Below are positions 3,034 through 62,930 of a DNA stretch of 64,000 nucleotides, one piece after another. Origin of the DNA: a virus. The notes beneath the pieces are model-generated. The model made no database searches. It had not been told where the DNA came from and saw nothing but the letters and a program-made list of their open reading frames with translations. The stretch lies in IMG/VR virus record IMGVR_UViG_3300042938_002038, positions 1-64,000 of that record. One strand, 5' to 3'. The translations under genes and the position numbers were made by a program. The number at the start of each line of letters is the position of its first letter. Positions within the stretch are counted from its first letter, which is position 1.

Positions 3034-4059
3034 ATGTTATGGCTTGAACAAAAATATATTGGACTTTTGTCAAATCGACTAAGGAACTTCAAAAGGAAGT
3101 CCTCTGGTTTATATAATTTCTCATGCCCAATTTGCAATGACTCTGAGTCCGATAAAAGGAAAGCCAGAGGTTATATCTATGAAAAGCAAAGTAAAACCCT
3201 ATTCCATTGCCATAATTGTAATGCAACAAAAGGGTTTGAAAATTTTTTAAAATTAATTGATGAATCTATTTTCAATGAATATGCACTTGAAAAGTTAAAG
3301 GACAAAAAGTCCCCGCAACAAGTTGATCTAGAAGAATTTGTTGCAAAAATGAAGAAGCCAAACTTTATGAAGACTGAGCCACTCAAGGGTCTTCGGAAAA
3401 TTAGTCAACTAGATCCTGATGATCCTATTAAGCTTCTTGTATCAAAACGAAAAATTCCCAATCCATATCATGCAAAGATGTTTAAAGTACCTAAGTTCTT
3501 TTCATGGGTAAATAGTTTTATCCCTGATAAGTTTGATGATGAGTCTTTACTCTATGACGAGCCACGACTTCTTATCCCTTTCTTAAATAAGAATGGTGAA
3601 ATGCATGCTTTTCAAGGTAGGTCACTAGACTCAAAGTCTAAAACAAAGTATATTACTATTGTTCTTGATGAAAGTCAACCAAAAGTATATGGGCTAGATA
3701 CAGTTGATCCTTCTAAAAAGACTTATGTTACAGAAGGTGTTTTAGATGCAATTTTTCTACCAAATGCTATTGCAACTGCAGGTGGGGATATAGTATCAGG
3801 AATTAAAGATATGACCAAAACCAATATGATTATTGTTTATGACAATGAAAATAGAAACAAGCACACAATTAATAAAATTGAAAAGGCCATATACAATGGT
3901 TATAAAGTATGTATATGGCCTGAGAATTTTACATATAAAGATATTAATGAAGCTATTATAGCAGGGTTAAGTACAGAATTTATTAAACATATTATAGATA
4001 CAAATACTTATCATGATCTTAATGCTAAACTTAAATTAACTATGTGGAAGAAAATTTAA
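3034..4059 (+). CDS. gp61: DNA primase, T4 gp61 type
   Basis: Primase that makes RNA primers for lagging-strand synthesis with the gp41-type helicase. Residues 31-62 hold a zinc ribbon (CPIC ... CHNC). The Toprim core has the catalytic Glu at about residue 234 (VTEG) and the acidic metal site at VYDNEN (about 270). Length (341) is normal for the family. The start is the first ATG after promoter 2973-3000. The last 107 residues (3736-4059) have a diverged second copy at 4796-5125, beyond the oppositely oriented endonuclease, so the present 3' end appears to be a replacement brought in with that element; the join falls right after the catalytic Glu codon, where EGVLDA replaces an apparent ancestral (E)GPIDS. 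Confidence 0.92.
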
Positions 4060-4711
4060 ATTTTCTAGGTACCATACCCTCCTTCCAGAAAATTTTAGCT
4101 TCAGAAGGTAAACATATATAGTTTTTTACGCCGTCATTGTAATATTTTTTACCGATTCTCCCTGAAGGTACACTATTCTTTTTTCTTGACTTTTTTAATC
4201 TACCAAGAAAAGTGCCTTCAGGTAATTTTCTAACAAAATATTCATTTGTGCCATCATTACACCAAAATTTACCTGTTCTATCAACTATCATTTTTAGTTT
4301 AGTTTCTTCGGTAATAATTTGATATGATCTAGCTATTTGAATTTTTTTTAAAGATTCTTTTGAGTGTTTTTTACCATAAAATGGATTTTTTTCACCAAAT
4401 CTGGCTGAACCATACATAGGATTATCTTCCCCAGCAGCCCCTTCTCCACCATCTGTCATATTATGTAATATACCGGTATTTCTATCTTTTCGACCATACC
4501 AACGTATTAGTCTTCTTTCTAATGCCAATGCACCAATATTAGATAAATTATTTTCACAAATAATAATTTTTGACTTATCCTTTGGTGCTGTTATTCTGTG
4601 TTTATCCCATGCTCTATTACCTGTTCCTTTACCTATATAATATGGTGTTCCATTTTTTCTAAGATAAGCATATACATAATATCTAAATTCAGTCTTTAAT
4701 TGTTTTTGCAT
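4040..4711 (-). CDS. GIY-YIG homing endonuclease with NUMOD3 motifs, inserted in the primase gene
   Basis: The N-terminus has the GIY-YIG core ([19 protein letters not shown], residues 11-29), Arg at RAWDKH and the conserved Glu at [16 protein letters not shown]3 repeats follow ([21 protein letters not shown]). The C-terminus has two W/Y-x-N-D-G units (FWCNDG ... GR; YYNDG). It is encoded against the primase and overlaps its last 20 bases. It is flanked by two versions of the primase 3' end, which marks it as a homing element that inserted in the conserved Toprim coding sequence and carries a cleavage-resistant replacement tail. A TATAAATA late box lies upstream on the same strand (4773-4780), as for several T4 homing endonucleases. 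Confidence 0.88.
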
Positions 4712-9717: not shown

Positions 9718-10818
9718 ATGGCTTATAATGTATTTGATTCTTCAAATAAAAAGAGTCATCTTAAATCTCGACTTTTCTTTGATGAACCTCCTACTATTGC
9801 TAGGTTTGACAAACAAAAGTATCCTTTTCTAGAAAAACTAACTCGACAGCAAATGAGTTTCTTTTGGGTTCCGGAGGAAGTTGATCTTCTAAAGGACTCA
9901 AAAGACTTTCGTGAACTATCAAAGCATGAACAACATATTTTTACCAGTAATCTAAAGCGCCAAATTCTGCTTGATTCTGTGCAAGGTCGAGCACCAACTG
10001 CAGCATTTGGTCCGATCTGTTCTTTACCTGAACTTGAAAACTGGATTGTGGCATGGACATTTAGTGAAACTGTTCATTCACGATCCTATACGCATATCAT
10101 TCGTAATGTATATTCCGATCCATCAAAGATTCTGGATGATATTCTAGATATGCAGGAAATTGTTGATTGTGCCAAAGATATCAGCAAGAACTATAATGCG
10201 CTAATTGAACTCAATAGTACACTTAGCCCACTTTCAAGTTTTTCAATGGATCCTTATGATCATAAGAAAGCCCTCTGGTTGACTCTCATGTCAGTCAATA
10301 TTCTTGAGGGTATCCGTTTTTATGTCAGTTTTGCTTGTTCATGGGCATTTGCTGAGTTGAAGAAGATGGAAGGTAATGCTAAAATTATCAAGCTTATCTG
10401 CCGTGATGAAAATCTACATCTAGCTAGTACACAACAACTTCTAAAAGTACTTCCGCTAGATGATCCTGATTTCAAGAAAATTCAAGAAGAAACAAAAGCA
10501 GAATGCCTTGAAATGTTTAAAGATGCAGCAGAACAAGAAAAAGCATGGGCTGAATATCTATTTAAAGATGGATCAATGATTGGTCTGAATAAGCAACTTC
10601 TAAATGAATATGTAGAGTGGATTACCAACCGTCGTTTGACTGCAGTTGGTCTTCCAAATCTATATAAGACTGGTTCTAATCCATTACCATGGACAAGCAA
10701 ATGGATTTCTGGTGGAGAAGTACAAGTTGCACCTCAGCAAACACAAATAACTTCCTACATTATCGGTGGAGTGAAGAATGATGTTTCAACTGAATCATTA
10801 AAAGATTTTAAACTGTAA
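9718..10818 (+). CDS. nrdB: ribonucleotide reductase class Ia, small (beta) subunit
   Basis: Carries the diiron-tyrosyl radical used by NrdA. ETVHSRSYTHIIRN supplies the Glu, His and radical Tyr in E-x2-H-x3-Y spacing (about residues 119-126), and RDENLHL supplies the second Glu/His pair. The C-terminus (STESLKDFKL) is the tail that docks on NrdA. The last 25 codons plus stop (10741-10818) have a second copy at 12202-12279, beyond the following endonuclease gene. The two copies encode the same peptide but differ at eight codons, so the tail in use looks like a recoded replacement delivered by the homing element. Confidence 0.95.
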   Translation: MAYNVFDSSNKKSHLKSRLFFDEPPTIARFDKQKYPFLEKLTRQQMSFFWVPEEVDLLKDSKDFRELSKHEQHIFTSNLKRQILLDSVQGRAPTAAFGPICSLPELENWIVAWTFSETVHSRSYTHIIRNVYSDPSKILDDILDMQEIVDCAKDISKNYNALIELNSTLSPLSSFSMDPYDHKKALWLTLMSVNILEGIRFYVSFACSWAFAELKKMEGNAKIIKLICRDENLHLASTQQLLKVLPLDDPDFKKIQEETKAECLEMFKDAAEQEKAWAEYLFKDGSMIGLNKQLLNEYVEWITNRRLTAVGLPNLYKTGSNPLPWTSKWISGGEVQVAPQQTQITSYIIGGVKNDVSTESLKDFKL

Positions 10819-12197
10819 TGTTTATAACACCAAAACTAGAAGAGTGTCTTGATTTTGCTAAAAATATGGGTTGTAATGAACTAGTTCAAGTTTCTATTGA
10901 ACCCAGAGAGTTTGATTTACCTTATAGGTGCCACGATAACTGTTCATATAATCCTGTTCTTGGATATTATTTTATCAAAGATTATAATACTAATATATTA
11001 TATGCTTATAAACACAGTGTTTTAAATCTAGGCGAAAAACTTATAGATGTAACACCCACTTTTGATAATAGAACATATAATATATTTGGTTATGGTCCAG
11101 ATTTAAAATATTCTTTTGAGTCTATTATGTATCTTGAAAACCAAGTTTTTATAAATAAAGAAAAACTTGGAGATCAAGATATGTATTACGTTTATGGATT
11201 AATAGACTCTAGAACAAATCTACCTTTTTATATAGGTAAAGGTAAAGGCGATCGTTGGAAATACCATTATAGCAATAAATGTTTTGAAAAAGAAATATCA
11301 ACAAAAAAAGTTGATATGATTAAAGAGCTTAAATCTTTAGGATATGAACCAAGCGTAATATTTTATGCTCAAAATATTGATGATGAACATATAGCATATG
11401 ATATAGAAGCATCACTTATTAAAAAATACGGTAGAAAATATTATGAAGAAAACGGTATACTAACCAATATTACTATAGATTCTAGACCGCCTAACTGGAA
11501 AGATAAAACTTATGAAGAAATATATGGTTACGAAAAAGGTAAGGAAATAAAAGAATATAAAGCCAAACAACAAAGAGCACGTGGCGGATATTTTAAAGGA
11601 CAAAAGCATACAGAAGAAAGTAAAAGAAAAATAGGTGTTGCTTCTGCTGCGCAAGCTTTAACCGAAGAAATAGTTTTAGAATATGGTAAAAACTTTTGTG
11701 ATTTTTTTAATGGCCAAATAAGTAGAACAAAATGGAACTGGTGGACAAAAAATAATAATATACAAACAAATATTTTAAAACAGGGTATTAGATTTTCCGG
11801 AAGATATGCATTAGAAGTTTTTGTAGAGAGGTTCAATGCAAATCTTATAACAAGTCCTTTGTTATGGTTTCATCATCCTGAAACTAAAGAAACATTTAGA
11901 TGTCAAGATTGGGAACTAGAACACAAAGTAAAAATAGTTCCAAAAGGGTTTATTAAGGGGCGAGGAATAAGTACTTTTGGTGATAATAAAGGTTTTATAA
12001 TAGTAAGCGATAAAGAAAAAAATACAACAACAAGAATGAAAAAAGATGATCCAAGATATATCTCTGGTGAATACATATCAGTAAATAAAGATTATGTTAT
12101 TGTAGAAGATAATAATCATAATATTTTTAGGGTAAAAAAGAACGATCCAAGATATATTTCGGGTGAACTTGTATTTAAAAATCCCGCAAAAGGATAA
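10818..12197 (+). CDS. GIY-YIG homing endonuclease with an extra N-terminal domain, inserted at the nrdB 3' end
   Basis: 459 residues, starting within the nrdB stop (TAATG). Residues 1-115 are not part of a GIY-YIG enzyme: YRCHDNCSYNPVLGYYF ... KHSVLN ... LIDVTPTFDN resembles a small stand-alone family with the pattern C-H-x-N ... G-W/Y-Y ... H-x-V ... D-V-T-P. The GIY-YIG domain starts at about 121 (MYYVYGLIDSRTNLPFYIGK) with the conserved Arg (DRWKYH) and Glu (IEASLIKKYGR). A NUMOD3-like motif (GGYFKGQKHTEESKRKI) and two copies of a 15-residue C-terminal unit (KKDDPRYISGEY and KKNDPRYISGEL) follow. Very AT-rich codons. Flanked by two nrdB tails, so it is the mobile part of a tail-replacing homing element. 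Confidence 0.85.
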   Translation: MFITPKLEECLDFAKNMGCNELVQVSIEPREFDLPYRCHDNCSYNPVLGYYFIKDYNTNILYAYKHSVLNLGEKLIDVTPTFDNRTYNIFGYGPDLKYSFESIMYLENQVFINKEKLGDQDMYYVYGLIDSRTNLPFYIGKGKGDRWKYHYSNKCFEKEISTKKVDMIKELKSLGYEPSVIFYAQNIDDEHIAYDIEASLIKKYGRKYYEENGILTNITIDSRPPNWKDKTYEEIYGYEKGKEIKEYKAKQQRARGGYFKGQKHTEESKRKIGVASAAQALTEEIVLEYGKNFCDFFNGQISRTKWNWWTKNNNIQTNILKQGIRFSGRYALEVFVERFNANLITSPLLWFHHPETKETFRCQDWELEHKVKIVPKGFIKGRGISTFGDNKGFIIVSDKEKNTTTRMKKDDPRYISGEYISVNKDYVIVEDNNHNIFRVKKNDPRYISGELVFKNPAKG

Positions 12198-12564: not shown

Positions 12565-12587
12565 ATGGGGGAAGGAGACTCCCCCAT
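12565..12587 (+). promoter_or_regulatory. hairpin presenting the ribosome site of the next gene in its loop
   Basis: An 8-bp perfect stem, ATGGGGGA (12565-12572) with TCCCCCAT (12580-12587), encloses the loop AGGAGAC containing the Shine-Dalgarno. The 3' arm includes the first two bases of the start codon at 12586. Such a structure would limit translation unless the RNA is made or opened in a particular way; T4 homing endonuclease mRNAs are known to use ribosome-site hairpins. Confidence 0.6.
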
Positions 12588-13008
12588 GAATACTTGGCTT
12601 TATAATGATAAACCTATAGAATTGGAAAATATAGAAAATTATATAGGATTTGTGTATTTAATAACAAATACACTAAATGATAAAAAATATATTGGTAAAA
12701 AGCTTTTAAAATTTAAAAAAACAAAAACACTCAAGGGTAAAAAGAAAAAGATACTTGTTGAGTCTGATTGGCAAACCTATTATGGTTCAAATGATGTTCT
12801 GAAAAAAGAAGTTCAAGAACATGGATCCAAAAATTTTAAACGTGAAATAATCCGATTTTGCAAAAATAAAAGTGAATTAACATACTTTGAGCTTAAAGAG
12901 CAAATTATAAGAGGCGCTTTAGAATCTGATAAGTATTATAATTCTTGGATATATGTTAGAGTCAGAAAAGAACATTTAAAAAGTGTTGACTTTTCTACAT
13001 ACATATGA
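12586..13008 (+). CDS. GIY-YIG nuclease-like protein
   Basis: 140 residues from the ATG at 12586, chosen because AGGAG lies seven bases upstream in the hairpin loop; an in-frame ATG at 12565 lies in the stem and has no ribosome site. The GIY-YIG core is FVYLITNTLNDKKYIGKK, followed by a Lys-rich loop, SDWQTYYGSND and KREIIRFC. The catalytic Glu is probably in TYFELKEQIIRGA. The family is common in T4-like phages as a single-domain protein without NUMOD repeats, so it may be a resident nuclease rather than an active homing enzyme. No flanking gene duplication is visible. Confidence 0.75.
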   Translation: MNTWLYNDKPIELENIENYIGFVYLITNTLNDKKYIGKKLLKFKKTKTLKGKKKKILVESDWQTYYGSNDVLKKEVQEHGSKNFKREIIRFCKNKSELTYFELKEQIIRGALESDKYYNSWIYVRVRKEHLKSVDFSTYI

Positions 13009-20691: not shown

Positions 20692-20988
20692 TTAATTCCT
20701 AATTTGATAATAAACTTCAAGTGAAATTTGATTCAAAAAAAATGGTGAGACATTATTTCGAATCTCAACCCTAAGACGTCTTGAAGAGTGATTTTCAATT
20801 TCATCCCATACTTCATCATATATTTGATCATAGACTTGATTCCTGACTTGATGCCAGATTTGATTCCAGGCTTGATCACTGATTTGATTGTCGACTTGAT
20901 TCCTGACTTGATGCCAGATTTGATTCCAGGCTTGATCACTGATTTGATCTTCGACTTGGCGCAAGACTTGATCCGAGACTCTATTCAT
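20692..20988 (-). CDS. tetrapeptide-repeat protein (x-x-Q-V/I), long member
   Basis: 98 residues made almost entirely of four-residue units, read from Met1: MNRV SDQV LRQV EDQI SDQA, then on for about 24 units. Position 3 is mostly Gln, position 4 Val/Ile, position 2 Asp/Asn/Arg, and position 1 variable with Trp, Tyr, Arg or Glu. The last seven units are degenerate. A 20-residue block is duplicated, and its DNA copies (20833-20888 and 20893-20948) are identical over 56 bases, so repeat number changed recently. At least ten other genes at 21.0-28.4 kb belong to the same family. No known domain, signal peptide or membrane span. Function unknown. Confidence 0.75.
   Translation of the reverse strand: MNRVSDQVLRQVEDQISDQAWNQIWHQVRNQVDNQISDQAWNQIWHQVRNQVYDQIYDEVWDEIENHSSRRLRVEIRNNVSPFFLNQISLEVYYQIRN
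20833..20948 (-). repeat. 56-bp perfect direct repeat at 60-bp offset
   Basis: Bases 20833-20888 are repeated exactly at 20893-20948, inside the tetrapeptide-repeat gene. The 60-bp period equals five tetrapeptide units, so the frame is kept. Perfect identity including silent positions implies a recent tandem duplication. Confidence 0.9.
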
Positions 20989-21040
20989 TTAAATTATCAA
21001 TGGCGTTTGTCATGATGATGCCGACATCATTCTCGTTCAT
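20981..21040 (-). CDS. possible 19-residue coupled peptide
   Basis: ATG at 21040 to TAG at 20981 reads MNENDVGIIMTNAIDNLNE. It overlaps the end of the upstream gene (stop at 21027) by 14 bases and the start of the repeat gene by 8, so it bridges an otherwise noncoding gap in a coupled series. Too short for certainty; it may only be a ribosome-reinitiation bridge. Confidence 0.35.
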   Translation of the reverse strand: MNENDVGIIMTNAIDNLNE

Positions 21041-21209
21041 TTATTTCACCCTTTATAAGATGTGCAATCTGATTTTGGAATATAGACCAAGTTATATCAT
21101 ATGTTTTATCGGCGACATCACGCATACATCGTTGACTTACATTCATATATATTTTATTGCCAGCACTCATTAAAAGTTTAGTTTTAAGATTATATTTAGC
21201 TCCAACCAT
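21027..21209 (-). CDS. degenerate tetrapeptide-repeat protein
   Basis: 60 residues from ATG 21209, four bases after the stop of the AAA+ gene; the frame is open further into that gene. The C-terminal two-thirds keeps the four-residue beat of the family with a hydrophobic or Thr/Cys residue every fourth position (GNKI YMNV SQRC MRDV ADKT, then YDIT WSIF QNQI AHLI). Gln at position 3 is mostly lost, so it looks like an old, diverged member. It lies between the AAA+ ATPase and the long repeat protein, in the same operon. Function unknown. Confidence 0.55.
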   Translation of the reverse strand: MVGAKYNLKTKLLMSAGNKIYMNVSQRCMRDVADKTYDITWSIFQNQIAHLIKGEINERE

Positions 21210-22089: not shown

Positions 22090-22115
22090 GTCAGTGTCCT
22101 TTTGTGTATAAGCAA

Positions 22116-22144
22116 ACCTTATCCCAGATTGGGATTAAAGTCAA
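22116..22144 (-). promoter_or_regulatory. sigma70-type promoter with dyad spacer, leftward
   Basis: On the minus strand TTGACT (22144-22139), a 17-base spacer and TAAGGT (22121-22116), directly upstream of the AAA+ gene. The spacer holds the inverted repeat ATCCCA-ATC-TGGGAT, a likely repressor site. The start of the spacer (TTTAATCCCA) is shared with the promoters at 23253 and 23548. Confidence 0.7.
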
Positions 22145-22263
22145 CCGTTATTTTCGATGGTGGAGAGGTATTCTTCGTATTCAGCAAGGTCGGCAGCGGT
22201 CGGCTCGTAAGCTTCCTCACAGGAAACCTCGAGGTCAAAATCGTCGGGATAGGATATGTTCAT
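22141..22263 (-). CDS. small acidic hypothetical protein
   Basis: 40 residues from ATG 22263 (GAAAGG just upstream); an alternative ATG at 22278 overlaps the stop of the upstream gene. The sequence MNISYPDDFDLEVSCEEAYE ... AEYEEYLSTIENNG is strongly acidic with many Tyr, in GC-rich codons. Small acidic proteins of this kind are sometimes DNA mimics, but nothing specific is recognised. It lies between the AAA+ promoter and the conserved gene at 22271. Confidence 0.5.
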   Translation of the reverse strand: MNISYPDDFDLEVSCEEAYEPTAADLAEYEEYLSTIENNG

Positions 22264-22270
22264 TAACCTT

Positions 22271-22501
22271 TCAGTCATTCCAGATTGTGAGGGTGATGCA
22301 ACCCATGCTCTGCTGATACAGCATAGCGCCGAGGTCGCCACCAGGTGTCATCTTAGCGCTTATACGGAGAAAGGGCTGCTTGTTACCCAGAGTGGTCCTG
22401 ATGCTGTTGGGCCATTCACCCGGGCGCATGCGCAGCTCAGAGGCTTCAGCGCTGAAGCAGTGCACCTTGTGTTCGGTCACGTCGGAGGCGGTAATGATCA
22501 T
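22271..22501 (-). CDS. conserved phage hypothetical protein
   Basis: 76 residues from ATG 22501, chosen because GAGG lies just upstream; the frame is open to 22519 in the leader. ELRMRPGEWPNSIRTTLGNK ... QQSMGCITLTIWND matches a pattern (L-x-x-x-P-G-x-W-P ... L-G-N-x-Q-P-F ... G-C-x-T-L-x-x-x-N-D) seen in small proteins of diverse phages and alphaproteobacterial prophages. It seems to be a beta-rich single domain. First gene of the leftward operon driven by promoter 22526-22554. Function unknown. Confidence 0.65.
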   Translation of the reverse strand: MIITASDVTEHKVHCFSAEASELRMRPGEWPNSIRTTLGNKQPFLRISAKMTPGGDLGAMLYQQSMGCITLTIWND

Positions 22502-22525
22502 GTCTACCTCATTCATCATAGTCTC

Positions 22526-22554
22526 TTTATACCACCACCCAAGATAAAAGTCAA
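22526..22554 (-). promoter_or_regulatory. sigma70-type promoter, leftward
   Basis: On the minus strand TTGACT (22554-22549), a 17-base spacer and TATAAA (22531-22526). The -10 and leader (TATAAAGAGACTATGATGAA) are repeated exactly at the rightward promoter 22946-22974, so the two divergent operons start with the same promoter-leader module. Confidence 0.8.
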
Positions 22555-22591
22555 TCCTAAGGATATCAATGGGTTAGCCAGGTAGACGCCT

Positions 22592-22713
22592 TAACCTATT
22601 GAAAAGATTATAAAAACTTTTTTCGGTGCACCAAAACTTTTTTCGATCGACCATCGGTCATGGACCTGCTCACCGCACTCAAGATGGTAAAACCTAATCT
22701 TTTCAATAGGTTA
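22592..22713. repeat. 19-bp perfect inverted repeat, structure A
   Basis: Arms TAACCTATTGAAAAGATTA (22592-22610) and its exact reverse complement (22695-22713) flank 84 bases containing two copies of AAAACTTTTTTCG and short dyads (GGTGCACC; GACC-ATC-GGTC). The region 22520-22980 carries no convincing gene. Candidate operator pair, origin element or structured RNA. Confidence 0.8.
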
Positions 22714-22730
22714 GCAGTTTTATAAAAGTC

Positions 22731-22860
22731 AATGATATCAATGGGTTAGGTGCTCACGACGGTTCTCGGCAGTCTAAGCCACTGTGGATGGGTTATCATA
22801 CCGCTAGGACCACCTAGCACGACTAGAGCACGGTTGCCATCCTAACCCATTGATATCATT
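22731..22860. repeat. 20-bp perfect inverted repeat with nested hairpins, structure B
   Basis: Arms AATGATATCAATGGGTTAGG (22731-22750) and its exact reverse complement (22841-22860). The stem can continue inward as GTGCTC / GAGCAC (22750-22755 with 22826-22831, with a bulge on the right), and a further hairpin GCTAGG-ACCA-CCTAGC lies at 22803-22818. Partial copies of the arm (GATATCAATGGGTTAG) occur at about 22562 and (CTAACCCATTGA) at 22923. Confidence 0.8.
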
Positions 22861-22945
22861 AGGACTCAAACTTTTTTCAAAAAAATGCAATTTTTTTCCT
22901 CAATCATATCAATGACTTAAGCCTAACCCATTGACAAAGCAGGGG

Positions 22946-22974
22946 TTTACTTTTATCTCATATGGGGTTATAAA
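22946..22974 (+). promoter_or_regulatory. sigma70-type promoter, rightward
   Basis: TTTACT (22946-22951), a 17-base spacer and TATAAA (22969-22974), followed by the leader GAGACTATGATGAA that is also found after the leftward promoter at 22526. A second TTGACA lies at 22931-22936. Confidence 0.7.
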
Positions 22975-22998
22975 GAGACTATGATGAAGGAAACGAAC

Positions 22999-23244
22999 AT
23001 GACCATCACGGTCTATGACCTCAGAAACAAATCTTTCTCACATGGTAACCTTGACTATAAAGTGTATGTGGTTATGGCCGATGGTAAAGAACCCAAAGTT
23101 TATAGCAGTTACTTTAGAATCAACGCCATTCGTGTGCTTAAAGATCTTGGTCATGATGTAACTGAGATTGATATCTATACCAAGCGTGATGCTAAAAAAG
23201 CTCTCGGCAAAGATCTTTTTGACAAAATTTACAACCCTCGCTAA
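22999..23244 (+). CDS. hypothetical early protein
   Basis: 81 residues from ATG 22999, chosen for AAGGA seven bases upstream; the leader ATGs at 22981/22984 are in frame. MTITVYDLRNKSFSHGNLDY ... YSSYFRINAIRVLKDLGHDV ... KRDAKKALGKDLFDK. It looks like a small alpha/beta protein with a basic C-terminal helix. First gene of the rightward early unit, divergent from the operon at 22501. No family recognised. Confidence 0.6.
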   Translation: MTITVYDLRNKSFSHGNLDYKVYVVMADGKEPKVYSSYFRINAIRVLKDLGHDVTEIDIYTKRDAKKALGKDLFDKIYNPR

Positions 23245-23252
23245 ATTACCTA

Positions 23253-23281
23253 TTGACTTTAATCTCAGATTAAGATATAAG
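23253..23281 (+). promoter_or_regulatory. sigma70-type promoter with palindromic spacer
   Basis: TTGACT (23253-23258), a 17-base spacer and TATAAG (23276-23281). The spacer contains TTAATCTCAGATTAA, a 7+7 palindrome around a central C, well placed for a repressor. It is preceded by CCTA as in the promoters at 2973 and 23783. Confidence 0.8.
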
Positions 23282-23317
23282 TTAAGTCATACCAACAACA
23301 CCAACGAAAGACCTACA

Positions 23318-23542
23318 ATGACCGAATTTTCCGGCGACAAGGCCAAGACCAACGTGACCATGGCATCCGATGGGCGCTACCACACCTCCCGTGACAAGTA
23401 CCGCAAGGGCGATCTGCGGAAGACCAATCTTGAGGAGTACGGCTCCACATCGTTCGGCACCGATGGGTACTACGACGGTGCTCCCGGCCGCAAGAAGCAT
23501 AAGAAGTGGAGCCGGACGGAAAAGCCGTCCTATCTCGACTGA
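23318..23542 (+). CDS. small basic hypothetical protein
   Basis: 74 residues (MTEFSGDKAKTNVTMASDGR ... GRKKHKKWSRTEKPSYLD), polar and basic, with many Gly, Tyr, Lys and Arg and almost no hydrophobic core, so likely disordered or nucleic-acid-associated. GC-rich codons contrast with the AT-rich noncoding flanks. It has its own promoter (23253-23281), and another promoter follows immediately after the stop. Monocistronic early gene of unknown role. Confidence 0.6.
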   Translation: MTEFSGDKAKTNVTMASDGRYHTSRDKYRKGDLRKTNLEEYGSTSFGTDGYYDGAPGRKKHKKWSRTEKPSYLD

Positions 23543-23547
23543 GTGGG

Positions 23548-23576
23548 TTGACTTTAATTCCAGATTAAGATATAAG
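23548..23576 (+). promoter_or_regulatory. sigma70-type promoter with dyad spacer
   Basis: TTGACT (23548-23553), a 17-base spacer and TATAAG (23571-23576). The spacer TTAATTCCAGATTAAGA differs from that of promoter 23253 by only two bases, so both are probably under the same control. Confidence 0.8.
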
Positions 23577-23603
23577 TTAAGTTATAACAAGGAGACTACC
23601 AAC

Positions 23604-23777
23604 ATGGATATCTCGACCGTTCTGTCCCGTATGTACGCCTTCGCCAAGACCACCAAGGACGATGTGGCCTCTAATGAGGTTGCCCGGGCCGCCGACCGTC
23701 TGGCGCACCAAGGGCCGTTTGAGGCTCAGCTGACCTCAGAGGAAGTCTCGGTGATTTCCCGCTTTGTCGGTGCATAA
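23604..23777 (+). CDS. small hypothetical early protein
   Basis: 57 residues (MDISTVLSRMYAFAKTTKDD ... SEEVSVISRFVGA), with a strong ribosome site (AAGGAG) nine bases before the ATG and its own promoter. Helical, GC-rich codons. No recognised domain. One of several short genes here that each have a separate promoter, an arrangement typical of host-takeover genes. Confidence 0.6.
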   Translation: MDISTVLSRMYAFAKTTKDDVASNEVARAADRLAHQGPFEAQLTSEEVSVISRFVGA

Positions 23778-23782
23778 GCCTA

Positions 23783-23810
23783 TTGACTTTTTTCCATAAC
23801 CTGGTATAAT
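23783..23810 (+). promoter_or_regulatory. sigma70-type promoter for a repeat-protein gene
   Basis: TTGACT (23783-23788), a 16-base spacer and a perfect TATAAT (23805-23810). TGGTATAAT at the -10 recurs as TGGTATAAG 29 bases downstream (23831). The primase promoter at 2973 has the same two-copy layout. Confidence 0.85.
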
Positions 23811-23842
23811 GGTTAGTGACCAAATAATGATGGTATAAGGTT

Positions 23843-24016
23843 ATGGAAAAAGTTAAGAATCAAGTCTTGGGTTCAGTCATGGGTCAAGTGGATAAAAAAG
23901 TTTATAATCAAGCCTTGAATCAAGTCCAGGATCAAATCTTTGATCAAGTCTATAATCAAGTCTATAATCAAGTCTGGAATGAAATCTGTTATCAAGTCTT
24001 GATGGAGATAGAATGA
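23843..24016 (+). CDS. tetrapeptide-repeat protein with its own promoter
   Basis: 57 residues that divide exactly into 14 four-residue units plus one residue: MEKV KNQV LGSV MGQV DKKV, then YNQA LNQV QDQI FDQV YNQV and so on. Val, Ile or Ala fills every fourth position without exception, and Gln precedes it in ten units. Expressed from promoter 23783-23810, unlike the clustered relatives at 26.7-28.4 kb. Its end overlaps the next small gene (ATGATG). No Cys pair, signal or membrane span. Function unknown; not similar to any family I recognise. Confidence 0.75.
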   Translation: MEKVKNQVLGSVMGQVDKKVYNQALNQVQDQIFDQVYNQVYNQVWNEICYQVLMEIE

Positions 24017-24189
24017 TGTATCTGGTTAGTTTTACCAACTTTGGTTATACTAAGGACTTTTCCAATAAGGAACAAGCTCTGACTTATATGGAGAGGGCAT
24101 GCCTTGAGGCACTGCTGATGACCGAGAAGGGTGAAGTCCTTGCTGGATTCTCTCCTATCACTGGCTTCAAAACCGAAAAAAGTGGTTGA
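24013..24189 (+). CDS. small hypothetical protein
   Basis: 58 residues (MMYLVSFTNFGYTKDFSNKE ... GFSPITGFKTEKSG) overlapping the stop of the repeat gene by four bases, so coupled to it. It has a beta-strand-like N-terminus followed by a helix (QALTYMERACLEALLMTEKG). Codons are of the GC-richer type. The -35 box of the next promoter overlaps its stop. No function recognised. Confidence 0.55.
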   Translation: MMYLVSFTNFGYTKDFSNKEQALTYMERACLEALLMTEKGEVLAGFSPITGFKTEKSG

Positions 24190-24213
24190 CTTTAAACCTA
24201 GTTAAGATATAAT
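24186..24213 (+). promoter_or_regulatory. sigma70-type promoter of the DUF932 gene
   Basis: TTGACT (24186-24191), a 16-base spacer and TATAAT (24208-24213). Its spacer (TTAAACCTAGTTAAGA) keeps the outer TTAA ... TTAAGA of the 23253 and 23548 promoters. Confidence 0.85.
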
Positions 24214-24245
24214 CCTACTATCAAAACAAACACGGAGACTTAAAA

Positions 24246-25357: not shown

Positions 25358-25397
25358 GTCATCTCTATACAACTGAAGTCATCTCTATACAACTGAA
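25358..25397 (+). repeat. 20-bp tandem direct repeat
   Basis: GTCATCTCTATACAACTGAA occurs twice back to back (25358-25377 and 25378-25397) in the 68-base leader between the membrane peptide and the gene at 25418. The copies are identical. It could be a protein-binding site or a simple slippage duplication. Confidence 0.85.
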
Positions 25398-25417: not shown

Positions 25418-25771
25418 ATGAAAACTTTTACTCGTATGGCTGCCCAGGGCGATTTCATCATTCTGCGGATTAATGATATTCCCGCAAATGTCGAGCGCCT
25501 CGCACCAAATGACCGTAACCACATTGTGGTTGCACATTCCGAAACCGGTCATGACCACGTGATGGTTGCCGACCGTGTAACCGCCTACAAGACTACTGGT
25601 ACCAAGGACGTTGATCTTTATGAGATGTTCCTCTCCGTTGAGGCTCCTACAGAGATCAATCATCTTCGTACCTTTGATACCCACGAGACTCTTCTGGTTC
25701 CTCCTGGTAACTATACTGTTCGCCGCCAGCGTGAATATGTTGCCGAGGGTTTCCGTCGGGCTCAGGACTAA
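25418..25771 (+). CDS. conserved hypothetical protein paired with DUF6745
   Basis: 117 residues: GDFIILRINDIPANVERLAP, IVVAHSETGHDHVMVADRV and NHLRTFDTHETLLVPPGNYT, ending VRRQREYVAEGFRRAQD. This His-rich, beta-rich pattern (H-S-E-T-G-H-x-H ... F-D-T-H ... P-G-x-Y-x-V-R-R-Q-R-E-Y) is a family seen in phages and alphaproteobacterial genomes, to my recollection commonly next to a DUF6745 gene, as here. The clustered His could bind metal. GC-rich codons. Function unknown. Confidence 0.75.
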   Translation: MKTFTRMAAQGDFIILRINDIPANVERLAPNDRNHIVVAHSETGHDHVMVADRVTAYKTTGTKDVDLYEMFLSVEAPTEINHLRTFDTHETLLVPPGNYTVRRQREYVAEGFRRAQD

Positions 25772-25810: not shown

Positions 25811-26656
25811 ATGAAGAAGATCGACAAGCTTACTGCAGAACAGACCGCTCAGCTCGAGGTGTATCGTGACAAGTGGATCAAGATCGGTCTTTCCACCGAC
25901 CGAGTTGATCCAGATGCAGCTAAGGCTGCTGTAGAACTTCTGTATAAGTGCGGTGGTCTTAACGCACCTGATGAGATCGTGTTTGCTAACGGTCCTCTGC
26001 ATGCTAAGAAGCTTCTAGGTAGCCGATCGGTTACGGAGAGTTGTGTATACGGCTCTCATGAGGCCGCTTGGCTTTCCTTTTATGACTTCATGCAGAATGA
26101 AGTTGGTATTGATCTTGAGGGTAAGCTTGACGGTCTCTGGGCTGTTGCCAAGACTTGTGGTTGGATTTCCTGCTACGACACTCTTGCAGTAGTGCAGGAT
26201 CGTCCGGTTCATATCAAGATGGATGAGGACAATCGACTCCATTGTGAAACTGGTCCTGCCATTCTATATGCTGACGGTTTTGCTGTCTATGCTTGGCATG
26301 GCGTCCGTATTCCTTCCGAATGGATTGAGGATAAGACTAGTCTGACTGCTCAGAAGGCTCTTACCTGGGAAAACATGGAGCAGCGTCGAGCCGCTTGTGA
26401 AATCCTTGGTTGGGTCAATATCCTTGGTGCACTAAACGCCAAGGTAATTGATGAGGATGAAGATCCCCAGATTGGTACTCTTCTGGAGGTTGATATTCCC
26501 GAGATTGGTCGGGAGAAGTTCCTCAAGGTTCTTTGCGGTACTGGTCGTGAGTTTGCCATTCCGGTTCCACCGGATATGACTACGGCACTTGGTGCTAATG
26601 CATGGACATATGATATTGATCCTGATCTTCTTAAGACACTTGAGGTCCGGACCTAA
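25811..26656 (+). CDS. DUF6745 protein
   Basis: 281 residues. The C-terminal half holds the recognisable DUF6745 sequence: VVQDRPVHIKMDEDNRLHCE, GPAILYADGFAVYAWHGVRI and PSEWI (about 128-180), then ALTWENMEQRRAACEILGWV and a final segment on the target or dose of a beta solenoid-like region. The N-terminal half is helical (LTAEQTAQLEVYRDKWIKIG). The family appears in phages and in many bacteria with no known activity. It directly follows its usual partner at 25418. Codon use is host-like and GC-rich. A GTCCGGAC repeat follows the stop but lacks a U-tract. Confidence 0.8.
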   Translation: MKKIDKLTAEQTAQLEVYRDKWIKIGLSTDRVDPDAAKAAVELLYKCGGLNAPDEIVFANGPLHAKKLLGSRSVTESCVYGSHEAAWLSFYDFMQNEVGIDLEGKLDGLWAVAKTCGWISCYDTLAVVQDRPVHIKMDEDNRLHCETGPAILYADGFAVYAWHGVRIPSEWIEDKTSLTAQKALTWENMEQRRAACEILGWVNILGALNAKVIDEDEDPQIGTLLEVDIPEIGREKFLKVLCGTGREFAIPVPPDMTTALGANAWTYDIDPDLLKTLEVRT

Positions 26657-26674: not shown

Positions 26675-26848
26675 ATGAATGGGATTATGGATCAAGTTTG
26701 GGATCAAGTCTATGGTCAAATCCGGCGTCAAGTCTATGATCAAGTCTTGCGCCAAGTCGAAGATCAAATCAGACTTCAAGTTTGGAATCAAGTTTGGGAT
26801 CAAGTCTATCGTCAAGTTTATGATCAAGTCATAAATTCAAATGAATAA
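26675..26848 (+). CDS. tetrapeptide-repeat protein
   Basis: 57 residues, the same length as the member at 23843: MNGI MDQV WDQV YGQI RRQV, then YDQV LRQV EDQI RLQV WNQV WDQV YRQV YDQV INSN and E. Twelve of 14 units are a strict x-x-Q-V/I. DNA units of 12 bases around ATCAAGTC are nearly uniform in codon choice (CAA GTC). First gene of the rightward array of eight paralogues interrupted once (27190). Lies 18 bases after the DUF6745 gene. Function unknown. Confidence 0.75.
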   Translation: MNGIMDQVWDQVYGQIRRQVYDQVLRQVEDQIRLQVWNQVWDQVYRQVYDQVINSNE

Positions 26849-26881
26849 AAAAGTTTATAATCAAGTCAAGTTAGAGAACAA

Positions 26882-26998
26882 ATGAAAAAAGATGTATTTA
26901 CTCGATCCATAAACTTGATAAGTTATAGAATTTATGATCAAATTATAGCACAAATAGAAGATCAAATCTATTCTAAAATTTTAGAAGATAATCTGTGA
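26882..26998 (+). CDS. short degenerate tetrapeptide-repeat protein
   Basis: 38 residues (MKKDVFTRSINLISYRIYDQ, then IIAQIEDQIYSKILEDNL). The four-residue beat is visible as YDQI IAQI EDQI YSKI; the N-terminal part is diverged. The bases between 26849 and 26881 contain another fragment (KKVYNQVK) resembling units of the 23843 protein, so this stretch looks like the decayed remains of older members. It may still be translated; its stop overlaps a possible GTG start of the next gene. Confidence 0.5.
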   Translation: MKKDVFTRSINLISYRIYDQIIAQIEDQIYSKILEDNL

Positions 26999-27003
26999 TA
27001 CAA

Positions 27004-27180
27004 ATGCGTAAAGTTTCCACTCAATGTCTTGATAAATTCTATATACAACTCTGGCATCAAGTTTGTATTAAAATTGACAATGAATCCGTAAATTATATTT
27101 GGGAACAATCTAGTATTTTTAGTATAGTCTGGGATCAAGTTCAGATGCCTATCAAGGATCAATTGACTGAATTAAATTAA
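27004..27180 (+). CDS. degenerate tetrapeptide-repeat protein
   Basis: 58 residues from ATG 27004 (GTG at 26995 is an alternative). MRKV STQC LDKF YIQL WHQV at the N-terminus and IVWDQVQMPIKDQLTELN at the C-terminus keep the four-residue rhythm; the middle is diverged and shifts phase. AT-rich compared with the near-perfect members, consistent with an older copy. Similar start (M-R/E-K-V) and length to the member at 23843. Function unknown. Confidence 0.55.
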   Translation: MRKVSTQCLDKFYIQLWHQVCIKIDNESVNYIWEQSSIFSIVWDQVQMPIKDQLTELN

Positions 27181-27189
27181 GGAATAAAA

Positions 27190-27444
27190 ATGGATAATAT
27201 TCAAATCACACTATCTTATAATCGCTTTCCTGAAAATCAAAATCCAAATACTGTAATGGGTGAATCATATCAACATACTTTTACCATTACTGATGAAGCC
27301 ACTTATTTTTCTGTTTTAGAAAAAGTTGAAGTGATGCTTAAGAGTCTAGGTTATGAGTTCAATGGTCATCTAGAATTTAGTGGTCTGGTAACTGATGATG
27401 CCGTTCAGAGTGATAATGTTGTAGTTCTTCGCCCTGAGGAATAA
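27190..27444 (+). CDS. hypothetical protein inside the repeat-gene array
   Basis: 84 residues without the tetrapeptide pattern: IQITLSYNRFPENQNPNTVM, YQHTFTITDEATYFSVLEKV and VMLKSLGYEFNGHLEFSGLV. It looks like a compact alpha/beta protein. Ribosome site AAGGA. It separates the older, degenerate repeat genes from the more regular ones, and 42 bases downstream are noncoding with a fragment of repeat-like sequence (CGTCAAGTCAAAGATCAA). No family recognised. Confidence 0.6.
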   Translation: MDNIQITLSYNRFPENQNPNTVMGESYQHTFTITDEATYFSVLEKVEVMLKSLGYEFNGHLEFSGLVTDDAVQSDNVVVLRPEE

Positions 27445-27486
27445 GTACTATAAACCATATTAGCGTCAAGTCAAAGATCAAAACCT

Positions 27487-27648
27487 ATGAAACAAGTCTG
27501 GGAACAAATTTGTGGTCAAATTTGGGAACATGTCTGGGATCAAGTAGAAAATCAAATCAGTGATCAAGTCAGGAGTCAAGTATGGGGTCAAGTCAGACTT
27601 CAAGTCAGAAGTCAAATCTGGGATCAAGTAGAAGATCAAGCCCTATGA
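27487..27648 (+). CDS. tetrapeptide-repeat protein
   Basis: 53 residues: MKQV WEQI CGQI WEHV WDQV, then ENQI SDQV RSQV WGQV RLQV RSQI WDQV EDQA L. Thirteen units in perfect register from Met1, all with V/I/A at position 4 and twelve with Gln at position 3. It is the first of four consecutive members joined by four-base ATGA overlaps (at 27645, 27821 and 28000), so translation must be coupled. Function unknown. Confidence 0.75.
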   Translation: MKQVWEQICGQIWEHVWDQVENQISDQVRSQVWGQVRLQVRSQIWDQVEDQAL

Positions 27649-27824
27649 ATTATGTTCAAGATCAAGTTGTGAGCTTTGTTAGGGGTCAAGTCTGGACTAA
27701 AATTATGAAACAAGTCATGGTTCAAATCGAGAGACAAACCCGAAATCAGGTCGTGGATCCAGTCTGGGATCAAGTCTCGGATCAAGTCCGCCGTCAAGTC
27801 CGAAGTCAAGTACTGAATCCATGA
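27645..27824 (+). CDS. tetrapeptide-repeat protein
   Basis: 59 residues from ATG 27645, which overlaps the previous stop; the frame is open further upstream but the overlap and the M-x-x-V start fix it. MNYV QDQV VSFV RGQV WTKI, then MKQV MVQI ERQT RNQV VDPV WDQV SDQV RRQV RSQV and LNP. Fourteen units, three with substitutions at Gln. Less acidic than its neighbours, with several Arg-containing units. Function unknown. Confidence 0.75.
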   Translation: MNYVQDQVVSFVRGQVWTKIMKQVMVQIERQTRNQVVDPVWDQVSDQVRRQVRSQVLNP

Positions 27825-28003
27825 ATAGTATTCGAGATAAGATCTTAGCTAATATTTGGCATCAAGTTTATAATAAGGTTTATTATCAAGTTAGTAATCA
27901 AATTTGGGATAAAACTACCGATCAAGTTTTGGATAAAGTTTATTCTGAAGTAACGATTGAAACTAGGATTCAAGTCAAGGATCAAATATGGGACATGTCA
28001 TGA
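27821..28003 (+). CDS. tetrapeptide-repeat protein
   Basis: 60 residues, exactly 15 units: MNSI RDKI LANI WHQV YNKV, then YYQV SNQI WDKT TDQV LDKV YSEV TIET RIQV KDQI WDMS. More diverged than its two neighbours (Lys or Glu for Gln in several units) and AT-richer, so the array mixes young and old copies. ATGA overlaps at both ends. Function unknown. Confidence 0.75.
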   Translation: MNSIRDKILANIWHQVYNKVYYQVSNQIWDKTTDQVLDKVYSEVTIETRIQVKDQIWDMS

Positions 28004-28200
28004 ACCAAGTCAGGGGTCAAGTCTGGAATCAAATCAGATTTCAAGTATGGGATCAAATCTGGGATCAAATAGAAGATCAAGTCCGGAATCAAATCTGGGA
28101 TCAAGTAGAAGATCAAGTCAGATTTCAAGTCTGTGATCAAGTCAGATTTCAAGTCTGTGATCAAGTCTGTGATGAATTCTATGTTCAAACCCGAAATTAA
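28000..28200 (+). CDS. tetrapeptide-repeat protein
   Basis: 66 residues from ATG 28000, which overlaps the preceding stop; an in-frame ATG at 27988 is possible. MNQV RGQV WNQI RFQV WDQI, then WDQI EDQV RNQI WDQV EDQV RFQV CDQV RFQV CDQV CDEF YVQT RN. One of the most regular members; the unit pair RFQV CDQV is repeated exactly, a sign of recent expansion. Three Cys occur at position 1. Last clear member before the degenerate one at 28215. Confidence 0.75.
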   Translation: MNQVRGQVWNQIRFQVWDQIWDQIEDQVRNQIWDQVEDQVRFQVCDQVRFQVCDQVCDEFYVQTRN

Positions 28201-28214
28201 ATTATGGGTAAATT

Positions 28215-28391
28215 ATGAAAACTGTTATTTCAGATATTCGTAGTTGTCAATATTCACACGCTTTTAATAAAGTTCAAGATACTACTTCTGCAGATACCCA
28301 AAATAAAGTTGCAATGCTTATTTGGGATAAAGTTTTCATCTCTACTTTATATAAGTATATTAGCACATTTGACGAAGATTTAGGAAATTAA
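28215..28391 (+). CDS. diverged tetrapeptide-repeat-like protein
   Basis: 58 residues: MKTV ISDI RSCQ YSHA FNKV, then QDTT SADT QNKV AMLI WDKV FIST LYKY ISTF DEDL GN. The M-x-x-V start, the length and several units (FNKV, QNKV, WDKV) tie it to the family, although the repeat is largely eroded. It ends two bases before the conserved gene at 28393, whose ribosome site (AGGA) lies in its last codons. Function unknown. Confidence 0.55.
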   Translation: MKTVISDIRSCQYSHAFNKVQDTTSADTQNKVAMLIWDKVFISTLYKYISTFDEDLGN

Positions 28392-61092: not shown

Positions 61093-62930
61093 TAACTGTT
61101 TCACAGGTAATTAATACTCAGAGCTTTGGTGTTTGGCTTGAAAGAACAAATCAAGTCATCAGCATCATTTCGCAAAATACTGTCACAACAGATTCAAGTA
61201 CCGGTGGTTCACTTACCACTGGTAATTCTTATGTCAATGGCTACTTTGGTGCAAATTATGTTACCGTAAATACCGCCATTCGAGGTGGTAATCTTACTAC
61301 CAGCGCCACACTTTCTATTAGTTCAAATGCAACTTTTAGTGGTGCAGTCAATACTGCAGGTCTTGTAAGTGCACTTAGTGGGATCAACATAACCGGATCC
61401 GCAAACGTAAGCTCAGTACTAAATGTTGGTTCAAATGTTTCGGTGAATACCACACAAATAGGCATAGGTAATTCTACGGTAAATTCTGCTATCACAGCTG
61501 CTCAAATGGTGGTGGCAAACTCTACCAATACCGCAACATTGAATCCAATAAGTTTGACCATTGGTACCACCGTAGTAAACACCTCTACTGTGGCTGTTGG
61601 AACATCAACTGTAAATTCTAGCTTGGTAAATACGGCCGCTATCAATATTACGGGTCAAGTAAATGCTGCAACTTTGTTTGTTTCCACATCAGCAAATGTA
61701 GGATCAAATGTTCAGCTCACTACAAGTCAATTGGCAATTGGTAATTCAACCGTAAATGCTATAGCAAATTCTACCACAATAAGATTAGCAAATTCTACAA
61801 ATACCGTTACCTTAACCCCTGTCAGCATTACATTAGGCACAACTGTTGTAAACACAACCGCACTTGCTTTGGGATCATCATTCACAGCAAATAGTACTAG
61901 AGTTGTTCTTGCCACTACTGCTGGTTTACAGGTGAACGGATCAATCGGTACCGCTGGGCAATTCTTGCTCTCTAATGGCACAACTGCTTATTGGTCTACG
62001 GTCACCACAGGATCTGTTACTTCTGTCGCCTCTGGTTCTGGTTTGACTGGTGGTCCAATCACATCAACTGGCACAATTTCAGTCCTTGCAAATTCTGGTA
62101 TAATTGCAAATACCACTGGTATATTTGTAAATCCAAATACTGGTATAGTAGTAAATACCGCTGGTGTTTTTGTAAATGCAACTTATATTGGCACTCTCTC
62201 TGCTAATAATGCAACTTATCTGAATGGTCAATTAGCATCTTACTATACAAATGCCACAAATATTACCACAGGCACATTAAATACCGCTAGACTTCCTGCG
62301 ACTGTAAATGTTGCAACTCTTCTGAATGTCGGTGCAAATGTAAATATCAATACATCCACCATATTTGTCGGCAATTCTTCCACAAATGTTATTGCTAATT
62401 CTTCCGCTCTTACTATTGGCGCAACATCTGTCAATAGCACAATGGTTAATTCCGGATCCGTAAATACCAATCTGCTTGCCGTATCAGGGAATGCCACATT
62501 TGCTAGCAATGTCAGTCTGACTTCTGGTTTACTTGTCGTTACAAATAATGCTACATTCTCTTCAAATGTTTCGGTTGCAAAAGTCCTTCTGGTTAATAAT
62601 TCGCACTATTCTTCAAATGCTTATACTTTCAATAATTCAACTGCACGTGCTGTAGTTGATGTATTTGATACCGCAACTTATAGATCAGCTGAATATTTGA
62701 TCCAGGTCACAGATTCTACAACAACCCCAAGGTCTTATCAGATAACTAAAATGACAGTTGTTCATGATAATACCACACCTTACTCAACCGAATATAGCAA
62801 TATCTACACAAATATTCCAATGGGAAATTTTGATGTAAATATTGACACCGCAAATAATTTTCAATTGAGATTTACACCTACAACTGCAAATTCTGTGGTC
62901 AAACTTTCTAGAAATTCAATTGTGGTTTAA
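61089..62930 (+). CDS. tail fibre-like protein
   Basis: 613 residues. N-terminal adapter VSQVINTQSFGVWLERTNQV (3-22), typical of fibres that attach to a T4-like baseplate. A long series of beta repeats rich in Asn/Thr/Ser/Val follows (VGSNVSVNTTQIGIGNSTVN and variants at about 35-residue spacing). SVTSVASGSGLTGGPITSTG (about 310) is a common hinge in phage fibres. The C-terminal 110 residues (ARAVVDVFDTATYRSAEYLI, QVTDSTTTPRSYQITKMTVV ...) form a distinct beta domain. Likely a trimeric fibre; receptor unknown. Confidence 0.8.
   Translation: MITVSQVINTQSFGVWLERTNQVISIISQNTVTTDSSTGGSLTTGNSYVNGYFGANYVTVNTAIRGGNLTTSATLSISSNATFSGAVNTAGLVSALSGINITGSANVSSVLNVGSNVSVNTTQIGIGNSTVNSAITAAQMVVANSTNTATLNPISLTIGTTVVNTSTVAVGTSTVNSSLVNTAAINITGQVNAATLFVSTSANVGSNVQLTTSQLAIGNSTVNAIANSTTIRLANSTNTVTLTPVSITLGTTVVNTTALALGSSFTANSTRVVLATTAGLQVNGSIGTAGQFLLSNGTTAYWSTVTTGSVTSVASGSGLTGGPITSTGTISVLANSGIIANTTGIFVNPNTGIVVNTAGVFVNATYIGTLSANNATYLNGQLASYYTNATNITTGTLNTARLPATVNVATLLNVGANVNINTSTIFVGNSSTNVIANSSALTIGATSVNSTMVNSGSVNTNLLAVSGNATFASNVSLTSGLLVVTNNATFSSNVSVAKVLLVNNSHYSSNAYTFNNSTARAVVDVFDTATYRSAEYLIQVTDSTTTPRSYQITKMTVVHDNTTPYSTEYSNIYTNIPMGNFDVNIDTANNFQLRFTPTTANSVVKLSRNSIVV

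Follow-up and report, generated by a model that had tools for sequence, protein, structure and literature searches.

Transcription activator-like (TAL) effectors, pentatricopeptide repeat (PPR) proteins and other modular repeat proteins are built from units of 33–35 residues. Pentapeptide-repeat proteins (Rfr fold) use a period of five, and the targets of diversity-generating retroelements (DGRs) vary at a few sites in a constant frame. DUF6745 (PF20530) is a known domain of unknown function. Here, we describe a phage locus that resembles each of these in part: about ten tiny proteins built of a four-residue repeat, xxQ(V/I), in register from Met1 in most of their open reading frames (ORFs), most of them next to a gene for a DUF6745 protein. 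The locus lies in a 64,000-nucleotide (nt) stretch (hereafter, the window), which comprises bases 1–64000 of the 81,774-bp IMG/VR virus record IMGVR_UViG_3300042938_002038. Most viral DUF6745 proteins carry a tetrapeptide-repeat domain of 5–68 units at one fixed point, and the window DUF6745 lacks it. As far as we could test, a split, hypervariable tetrapeptide system of this kind is undescribed.

The closest relationship is with DUF6745 itself: the repeat is the insert of its phage members and an insert-less member adjoins the array, but the small proteins have no DUF6745 domain and the Pfam model excludes the repeat. As in TAL effectors and PPR proteins, there are tandem units, an invariant frame, few variable residues (here candidate specificity residues) and fast reshuffling; however, the units are four residues long, sequence similarity was neither found nor expected, and any code in the repeats described here would be putative. 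With pentapeptide-repeat proteins the small proteins share a short repeat in which a small residue is followed by a polar and then a hydrophobic one, but the pentapeptide pattern is A(D/N)LXX with period 5, whereas the small proteins keep an exact period of 4 and gave no Pfam match to that family. A heptad coiled coil, with its hydrophobic spacing of 3.5 residues, does not describe them either, since a hydrophobic residue occupies every fourth position; this period fits no standard coiled coil. The initial annotation of this DNA, made from the letters alone, had set aside both the heptad and the pentapeptide pattern, and it did so correctly. DGR targets likewise combine a constant frame with a small number of variable sites, the choice of residue being concentrated at particular codons, but the repeats described here also change by gain, loss and reordering of whole units, besides substitution at nt 1, 2 and 5. 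A reverse transcriptase (PF00078) was found in 0 of 24 records, including that of the window (controls were positive; the window's and other records may be incomplete), so a DGR was rejected for this phage and a retroelement is not a likely engine of the variation.

The gene to which the repeats relate is the following:

25811..26656, + strand: DUF6745 protein, 281 amino acids (aa), without repeat insert (Pfam PF20530, E = 3.8e-35; alignment with insert-bearing relatives)

This gene scored 121.5 bits against a curated Pfam cut-off of 27. In insert-bearing DUF6745 proteins, the tract has a single location, after the 'SP...' helix region and before the '(Y)G...WLSFY' helix. In the alignment this site falls between 'KKLLGS' and 'RSVTES' of the window protein, which joins the two directly. 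The insert is common in viral DUF6745 proteins and lies outside the Pfam definition, as PF20530 models the constant core. It occurs in the flavours xxQV, xxQL, xxSV, xxAV, xxNL, xxSL and xxAT, as a rule one per protein. Conversely, no PF20530 domain was detected among the ten small ORFs scanned. The initial annotation had recognized a real period-4 family of paralogues but missed its anchor, namely the insert-less DUF6745 directly upstream, of which the repeat is the detached domain.

To compare arrangements, viral contigs were scanned for the pattern (xxQ[VI])5, which returned simple repeats and two kinds of locus, small xxQV arrays and long repeat-bearing DUF6745 proteins; two homology scans for DUF6745 were added. 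The resulting sample comprised 192 DUF6745 loci in 128 clusters (90% core identity), with all repeat flavours scored and four clusters corrected, L323 by direct reading and L326, L347 and L359 as short or truncated inserts. The survey demonstrates that insert and array exclude each other. Specifically, 84 clusters had an insert only, 34 (including the window phage) an array only, 10 had neither within about 10 kb and none had both (Fisher p = 2e-22 with kinship ignored, a value not to be taken at face value since the clusters share ancestry). Any of the scans would have caught loci with both, so the empty cell is not a sampling effect, whereas the sizes of the other cells are. Flanks were searched alike (median 10.1 kb for insert loci and 12.1 kb for array loci). 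An apparent locus with both, L323, proved to be a stop-to-stop artefact. Two records scored as lacking a nearby array carry arrays elsewhere, L300 about 10 kb or more away and L244 (represented by L010) at several places.

The array is usually close by, with an array gene no more than 300 nt from DUF6745 in 28 of the 34 array clusters, and DUF6745 was present in 9 of 18 viral records with small arrays versus 0 of 33 control records with simple repeats. On the tree, the cis (insert) and trans (array) states changed at least 9 times (8 without long branches). For example, the xxAT array of L404 (YNATWDATWNAT...) is nested in a well-supported clade with xxAT inserts, which indicates a change of arrangement without a change of repeat type. 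Arrays are mostly QV; the exceptions (L314, QL; L404, AT; L315 and L323, RV) each accompany an insert-less DUF6745, and apparent 'DL' and 'RL' arrays were QV arrays read in other frames. At L293:1157-4046, a tandem pair of insert-less DUF6745 genes encloses small genes of the QV and RV types. Many contigs (L337-L341, L346, L347, L351 and others) begin inside the repeat insert; short-read assemblies are thus interrupted at this point, and databases under-record the system. Bacterial genomes scanned with the tetrad pattern gave, by eye, mostly simple repeats, and DUF6745 was found in 0 of the 16 genomes then tested.

The small genes of the window are listed below with a tetrad score, i.e., the share of tetrads with Gln at position 3 and with Val or Ile at position 4, followed by one repeat unit that differs between related contigs.

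26675..26848, + strand: tetrapeptide-repeat protein 1, 57 aa; 12/14 Gln, 13/14 Val/Ile
26882..26998, + strand: eroded member, 38 aa; 3/9 Gln, 7/9 Val/Ile
26995..27180, + strand: badly eroded member with a GTG start, or ATG at 27004; 5/14 Gln, 4/14 Val/Ile
27487..27648, + strand: tetrapeptide-repeat protein, 53 aa, opening the overlapping run; 12/13 Gln, 12/13 Val/Ile
27645..27824, + strand: tetrapeptide-repeat protein, 59 aa, ATGA overlap with 27487..27648; 10/15 Gln, 13/15 Val/Ile
27821..28003, + strand: partly eroded tetrapeptide-repeat protein, 60 aa, ATGA overlap with 27645..27824; 6/15 Gln, 12/15 Val/Ile
27988..28200, + strand: tetrapeptide-repeat protein, 70 aa, 16-nt overlap with 27821..28003; 15/17 Gln, 15/17 Val/Ile
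28215..28391, + strand: badly eroded member, 58 aa, assigned by position and N-terminus only; 0/14 Gln, 6/14 Val/Ile
23843..24016, + strand: tetrapeptide-repeat protein, 57 aa, apart from the main array; 9/14 Gln, 13/14 Val/Ile
20692..20988, − strand: longest tetrapeptide-repeat protein, 98 aa, with an eroded C-terminal half; 15/24 Gln, 19/24 Val/Ile
21027..21209, − strand: doubtful, extremely eroded member; 1/17 Gln
28048..28059, + strand: single 12-nt unit, lacking in the otherwise identical contig L253 (pairwise alignment)

The first protein of the array begins 18 nt past the DUF6745 stop codon, and the 98-aa gene on the (−) strand contains a 60-nt higher-order repeat. These counts bear out the ORFs and the period-4 register reported in the initial annotation, as does the pattern (xxQ[VI])x3: the 81,774-bp record contains 41 matches to it, of which that at 59847 is unrelated, and 0 to its reversed form. 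Several of its details needed amendment. Val or Ile at every fourth position, usually after Gln, describes most ORFs, but those at 26882, 26995, 28215 and 21027 (−) are badly eroded, too much so to be recognized alone, and their membership is by position only. Lengths said to cluster at 53–66 residues range from 38 to 98 aa, mostly 53–70. Four genes (27487–28200) said to be joined by ATGA overlaps are so joined at two junctions (27645 and 27821), whereas at the third 27988 runs 16 nt into the gene ending at 28003. The idea of one family of paralogues that expands and erodes stood up.

Comparison of close relatives demonstrates how the repeats turn over. Over the compared stretch of array, the window differs from L253 by one 12-nt gap with 0 mismatches, as expected of unit turnover, and the inserts of L344 and L345 are likewise one unit apart. 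In the AT family, whose cores are conserved, the repeat string differs in every distinct contig, and L377 and L380 have no unit order in common between flanks that are 95.7–96.7% identical. In L256, a different repeat protein (62 aa) occupies the site of 26675 and a 60-aa repeat protein with another unit order that of 23843; the unit orders of its small genes are so divergent from those of the window that codons cannot be aligned.

Within the 12-nt unit of many inserts, only nt 5 and nt 1, in some cases together with nt 2, vary, and synonymous positions are invariant; in L044, variation amounts to 0.59 at nt 1, 0.41 at nt 5 and zero at all other nt. We counted new unit types that lie one substitution from a commoner type, per opportunity. 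Among inserts, the nonsynonymous rate at codons 1–2 was 0.29, about 4.7-fold the synonymous rate (0.062), and that at codons 3–4 was 0.039. In trans arrays, the corresponding values, for which opportunities are approximate, were 0.18 (codons 1–2 nonsynonymous), 0.096 (synonymous) and 0.05 (codons 3–4 nonsynonymous). The residues at position 1 are G/R/W/E in 90% of units in the nnG context and D/R/Y/G in 76% of units in the nnC/T context, indicating that the same four chemical classes are reached through different codons.

On balance, the small proteins are probably free-standing (trans) copies of the hypervariable tetrapeptide-repeat domain that is carried within DUF6745 (cis) elsewhere, serving as a variable binding surface that works with a constant part. 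That constant part would be DUF6745 together with the product of the adjoining gene at 25418–25771. The fold would be maintained by tetrad positions 3–4 (Gln/Ser/Ala/Asn and Val/Leu/Thr), and the choice of target would depend on the residues at position 1 (mostly Trp/Tyr, Gly, Arg or Glu/Asp) and at position 2 (mostly Asp, Ser, Ala or Asn). With the repeats made as several separate proteins, one DUF6745 could serve many variants. From these patterns we infer a physical partnership, recognition and an arms race, the likely setting being intracellular, between phage and host or between rival phages; hypervariable phage loci usually mark the contact point with host or rival. The most likely arrangement would be a system of two parts in which the repeats supply variable recognition and the array is their detached form. 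A more specific version can be offered only tentatively: the DUF6745/partner module may recognize its targets by means of a string of tetrapeptide units, each of which contributes one letter, so to speak, through its first residue (aromatic, glycine, arginine or acidic), with strings rewritten by unit shuffling and, in some lineages, split into separate small proteins so that one module uses many at once.

If the small proteins are indeed detached copies of the DUF6745 repeat, unexplained tiny phage ORFs would turn out to belong to a system that is widespread, evolves fast and has an evident genetic partner, and the locus would offer an unusually clear case of a domain moving repeatedly between an in-protein state and a set of separate proteins. 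It predicts that the small proteins and the insert-less DUF6745 act together and that unit order matters.

A number of results weigh against this interpretation. The AlphaFold2 (AF2) model of the insert-bearing DUF6745 of L044 has a confident core, and its repeat is drawn as two long helices at a predicted local distance difference test (pLDDT) score of about 41–58, a low confidence that leaves the binding surface without structural support. In several array clusters (L313, L264, L310 and L368), the nearest array gene is more than 600 nt from DUF6745, and half of the array records gave no DUF6745 match, most of them being short fragments and one of 102 kb beginning inside repeats. The tree-corrected test of exclusion is underpowered (5 well-supported independent pairs, 0 contrary, median p = 0.25). 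The codon 1–2 rate ratio falls to 1.9 in trans arrays, where opportunities are approximate, and such ratios are indicative only, since the unit types of one array are interdependent. Finally, a near-perfect array of few unit types would suit a pure scaffold equally.

That last point belongs to an alternative that we regard as possible but rather unlikely, namely that the repeat is a length-variable structural element (a stalk, spacer, polymer or condensate scaffold) in which slippage makes the number and order of units drift and positions 3–4 alone are important. The long helices of the AF2 model, the range of unit number (5 to 68) and the low-complexity sequence with its strong period would all suit such an element. 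Neutral drift, however, leaves unexplained the excess of amino-acid over synonymous change at codons 1–2, and the structural element also fails to account for the same residue classes being reached via different codons and for the narrow length of the trans proteins.

It is improbable that the locus is instead a nursery of small genes, in which a slippage-prone repeat escaped from DUF6745, re-expands and decays into small proteins of unrelated roles. Near-perfect and badly eroded copies do adjoin each other, and a site with a fresh repeat in L256 has an eroded repeat in the window. In the xxAT array at L404:9166-13661, badly eroded members retain a common C-terminus ('..I.RELEHVE'), so that the ends outlast the repeat, as a nursery would allow. 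Yet escaped repeats would not be expected to adjoin DUF6745 or to show strict exclusion between insert and array. Quite improbable, too, is the idea that the small proteins are trans-acting inhibitors or decoys directed against the DUF6745 repeat of a rival phage rather than partners of their own DUF6745; it would fit the same repeat type appearing as separate small proteins in many variants, but does not account for the lack of arrays in phages that have a full insert.

Several features indicate that the small xxQ(V/I) ORFs of the window are real, protein-coding genes. Among 190 complete small QV genes in 40 loci, the median length is 63 aa and 88% fall within 50–80 aa. The commonest N-terminus is M-[KN]-S-V-K-x-Q-V, Met is exactly in register in 131 of the 190, and 39 pairs of neighbours overlap by 4 nt. 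Phages differ in the Gln codon of the repeat, some using CAA and others CAG. The Val codon GTC dominates the arrays even of AT-rich phages, a skew relative to genome background that is expected after recent unit amplification and to which DNA-level constraint may also contribute. The initial annotation held that frequent frame breaks in homologous arrays would mark them as noncoding; a partial check favoured coding, with the 190 genes in register and the one clean polymorphism equal to one in-frame unit. The window arrays are 12-nt tandem repeats at the DNA level, and the coding signal holds nevertheless. A noncoding minisatellite or a DNA- or RNA-level function (binding sites or a recombination hot spot), with frames open by accident of the 12-nt unit, is therefore very improbable: tandem 12-nt repeats, other open frames and codon use off the genome background would suit it, but nonsynonymous change at codons 3–4 runs at about half the synonymous rate in trans arrays instead of equalling it, Gln is kept through either codon depending on the phage, length and N-terminal start are conserved, the cis repeat lies within an unquestioned protein gene, and the skewed codon use is equally expected from recent amplification. 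The DNA-level repeat array that the initial annotation had listed among possible roles is disfavoured on these same grounds, and its choice of this locus as the best candidate for an undescribed system holds up. The polymer or scaffold and the mimics or inhibitors that it also listed may yet apply.

A literature search (excluding subscription papers and preprints) returned nothing that names DUF6745, contains the repeat strings or fits the system, and nothing useful was found on the radical-SAM cluster described below. Searches of the small proteins against Pfam, PHROGs and NCBIfam gave weak, sub-threshold matches only. Among these, the weak similarity of the 98-aa protein to PF16086 (DUF4816) reached 22.2 bits versus a curated cut-off of 29.4 and is probably compositional.

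The candidate constant part includes a second gene immediately 5′ of DUF6745:

25418..25771, + strand: conserved partner gene, 117 aa, adjoining DUF6745 (PHROG 27831, E = 4e-7)

Its product has the motif 'AQGD...HSETGHxHVM...DTHE...VRRQREY...RxxxD', and a relative (~115 aa) lies within 1.5 kb of DUF6745 in 74 of 84 insert clusters, 28 of 34 array clusters and 8 of the 10 others. The partner stands directly 5′ of DUF6745 in Microcystis phage LMM01, a Mycobacterium prophage (whose DUF6745 has an xxQL insert), a Streptomyces plasmid and a Deinococcus plasmid. In the two plasmids (L408 and L409), the pair adjoins a cluster running from STM4011/4012 radical-SAM to STM4015 and comprising radical-SAM proteins, a hydrolase, STM4014 and STM4015. 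In the Deinococcus DUF6745, the N-terminal half carries leucine-rich-type repeats in place of the tetrads, so DUF6745 looks like a constant module that may be joined to different variable repeats. The window DUF6745 was modelled with confidence (AF2 mean pLDDT, 89.7). Foldseek found no PDB match to the model at E ≤ 0.001, nor did a sequence search of the PDB; against BFVD, the matches were phage proteins only, two of them named DUF6745, with Microcystis phage LMM01 the best. A 20-nt perfect duplication, GTCATCTCTATACAACTGAA, lies at 25358–25397, just 5′ of the partner gene, and a DUF932/TIGR03299 phage-plasmid protein (24246–25199; E = 1.4e-60) is encoded one gene 5′ of the pair.

The source of the window is a tailed phage, the record containing ORFs that we take to be ribonucleotide reductase, PhoH-type proteins and a T4-type baseplate set. 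NrdA and the baseplate wedge were compared with those of cultured phages, and the wedge was nearest to those of Sinorhizobium phage phiN3 and Pelagibacter phage HTVC008M (36–37% identity); for the 18–33 kb stretch, cultured phages yielded no near DNA relative. Rfam and tRNA searches gave no matches. Four ORFs resemble GIY-YIG homing endonucleases by eye (357–986, 4040–4711 on the (−) strand, 10818–12197 and 12565–13008), one of them directly 3′ of an nrdB-like gene. A promoter-like block, '(G)GTTGACTTTAAT...AGATTAAGATATAA', recurs 5′ of several small genes on both strands at about 22100–24220 (copies near 22136 (−), 23252, 23550 and 24187) and may represent a phage early promoter family. Between divergent genes, the noncoding stretch at 22560–22900, with the motifs 'CCTAACCCATTGATATCAT' and 'AACCTATTGAAAAGATT' repeated and inverted, is a possible origin or regulatory region. 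Lastly, a 45-nt tandem repeat (2.1 copies) is located at 62089–62181, inside a structural-type ORF.

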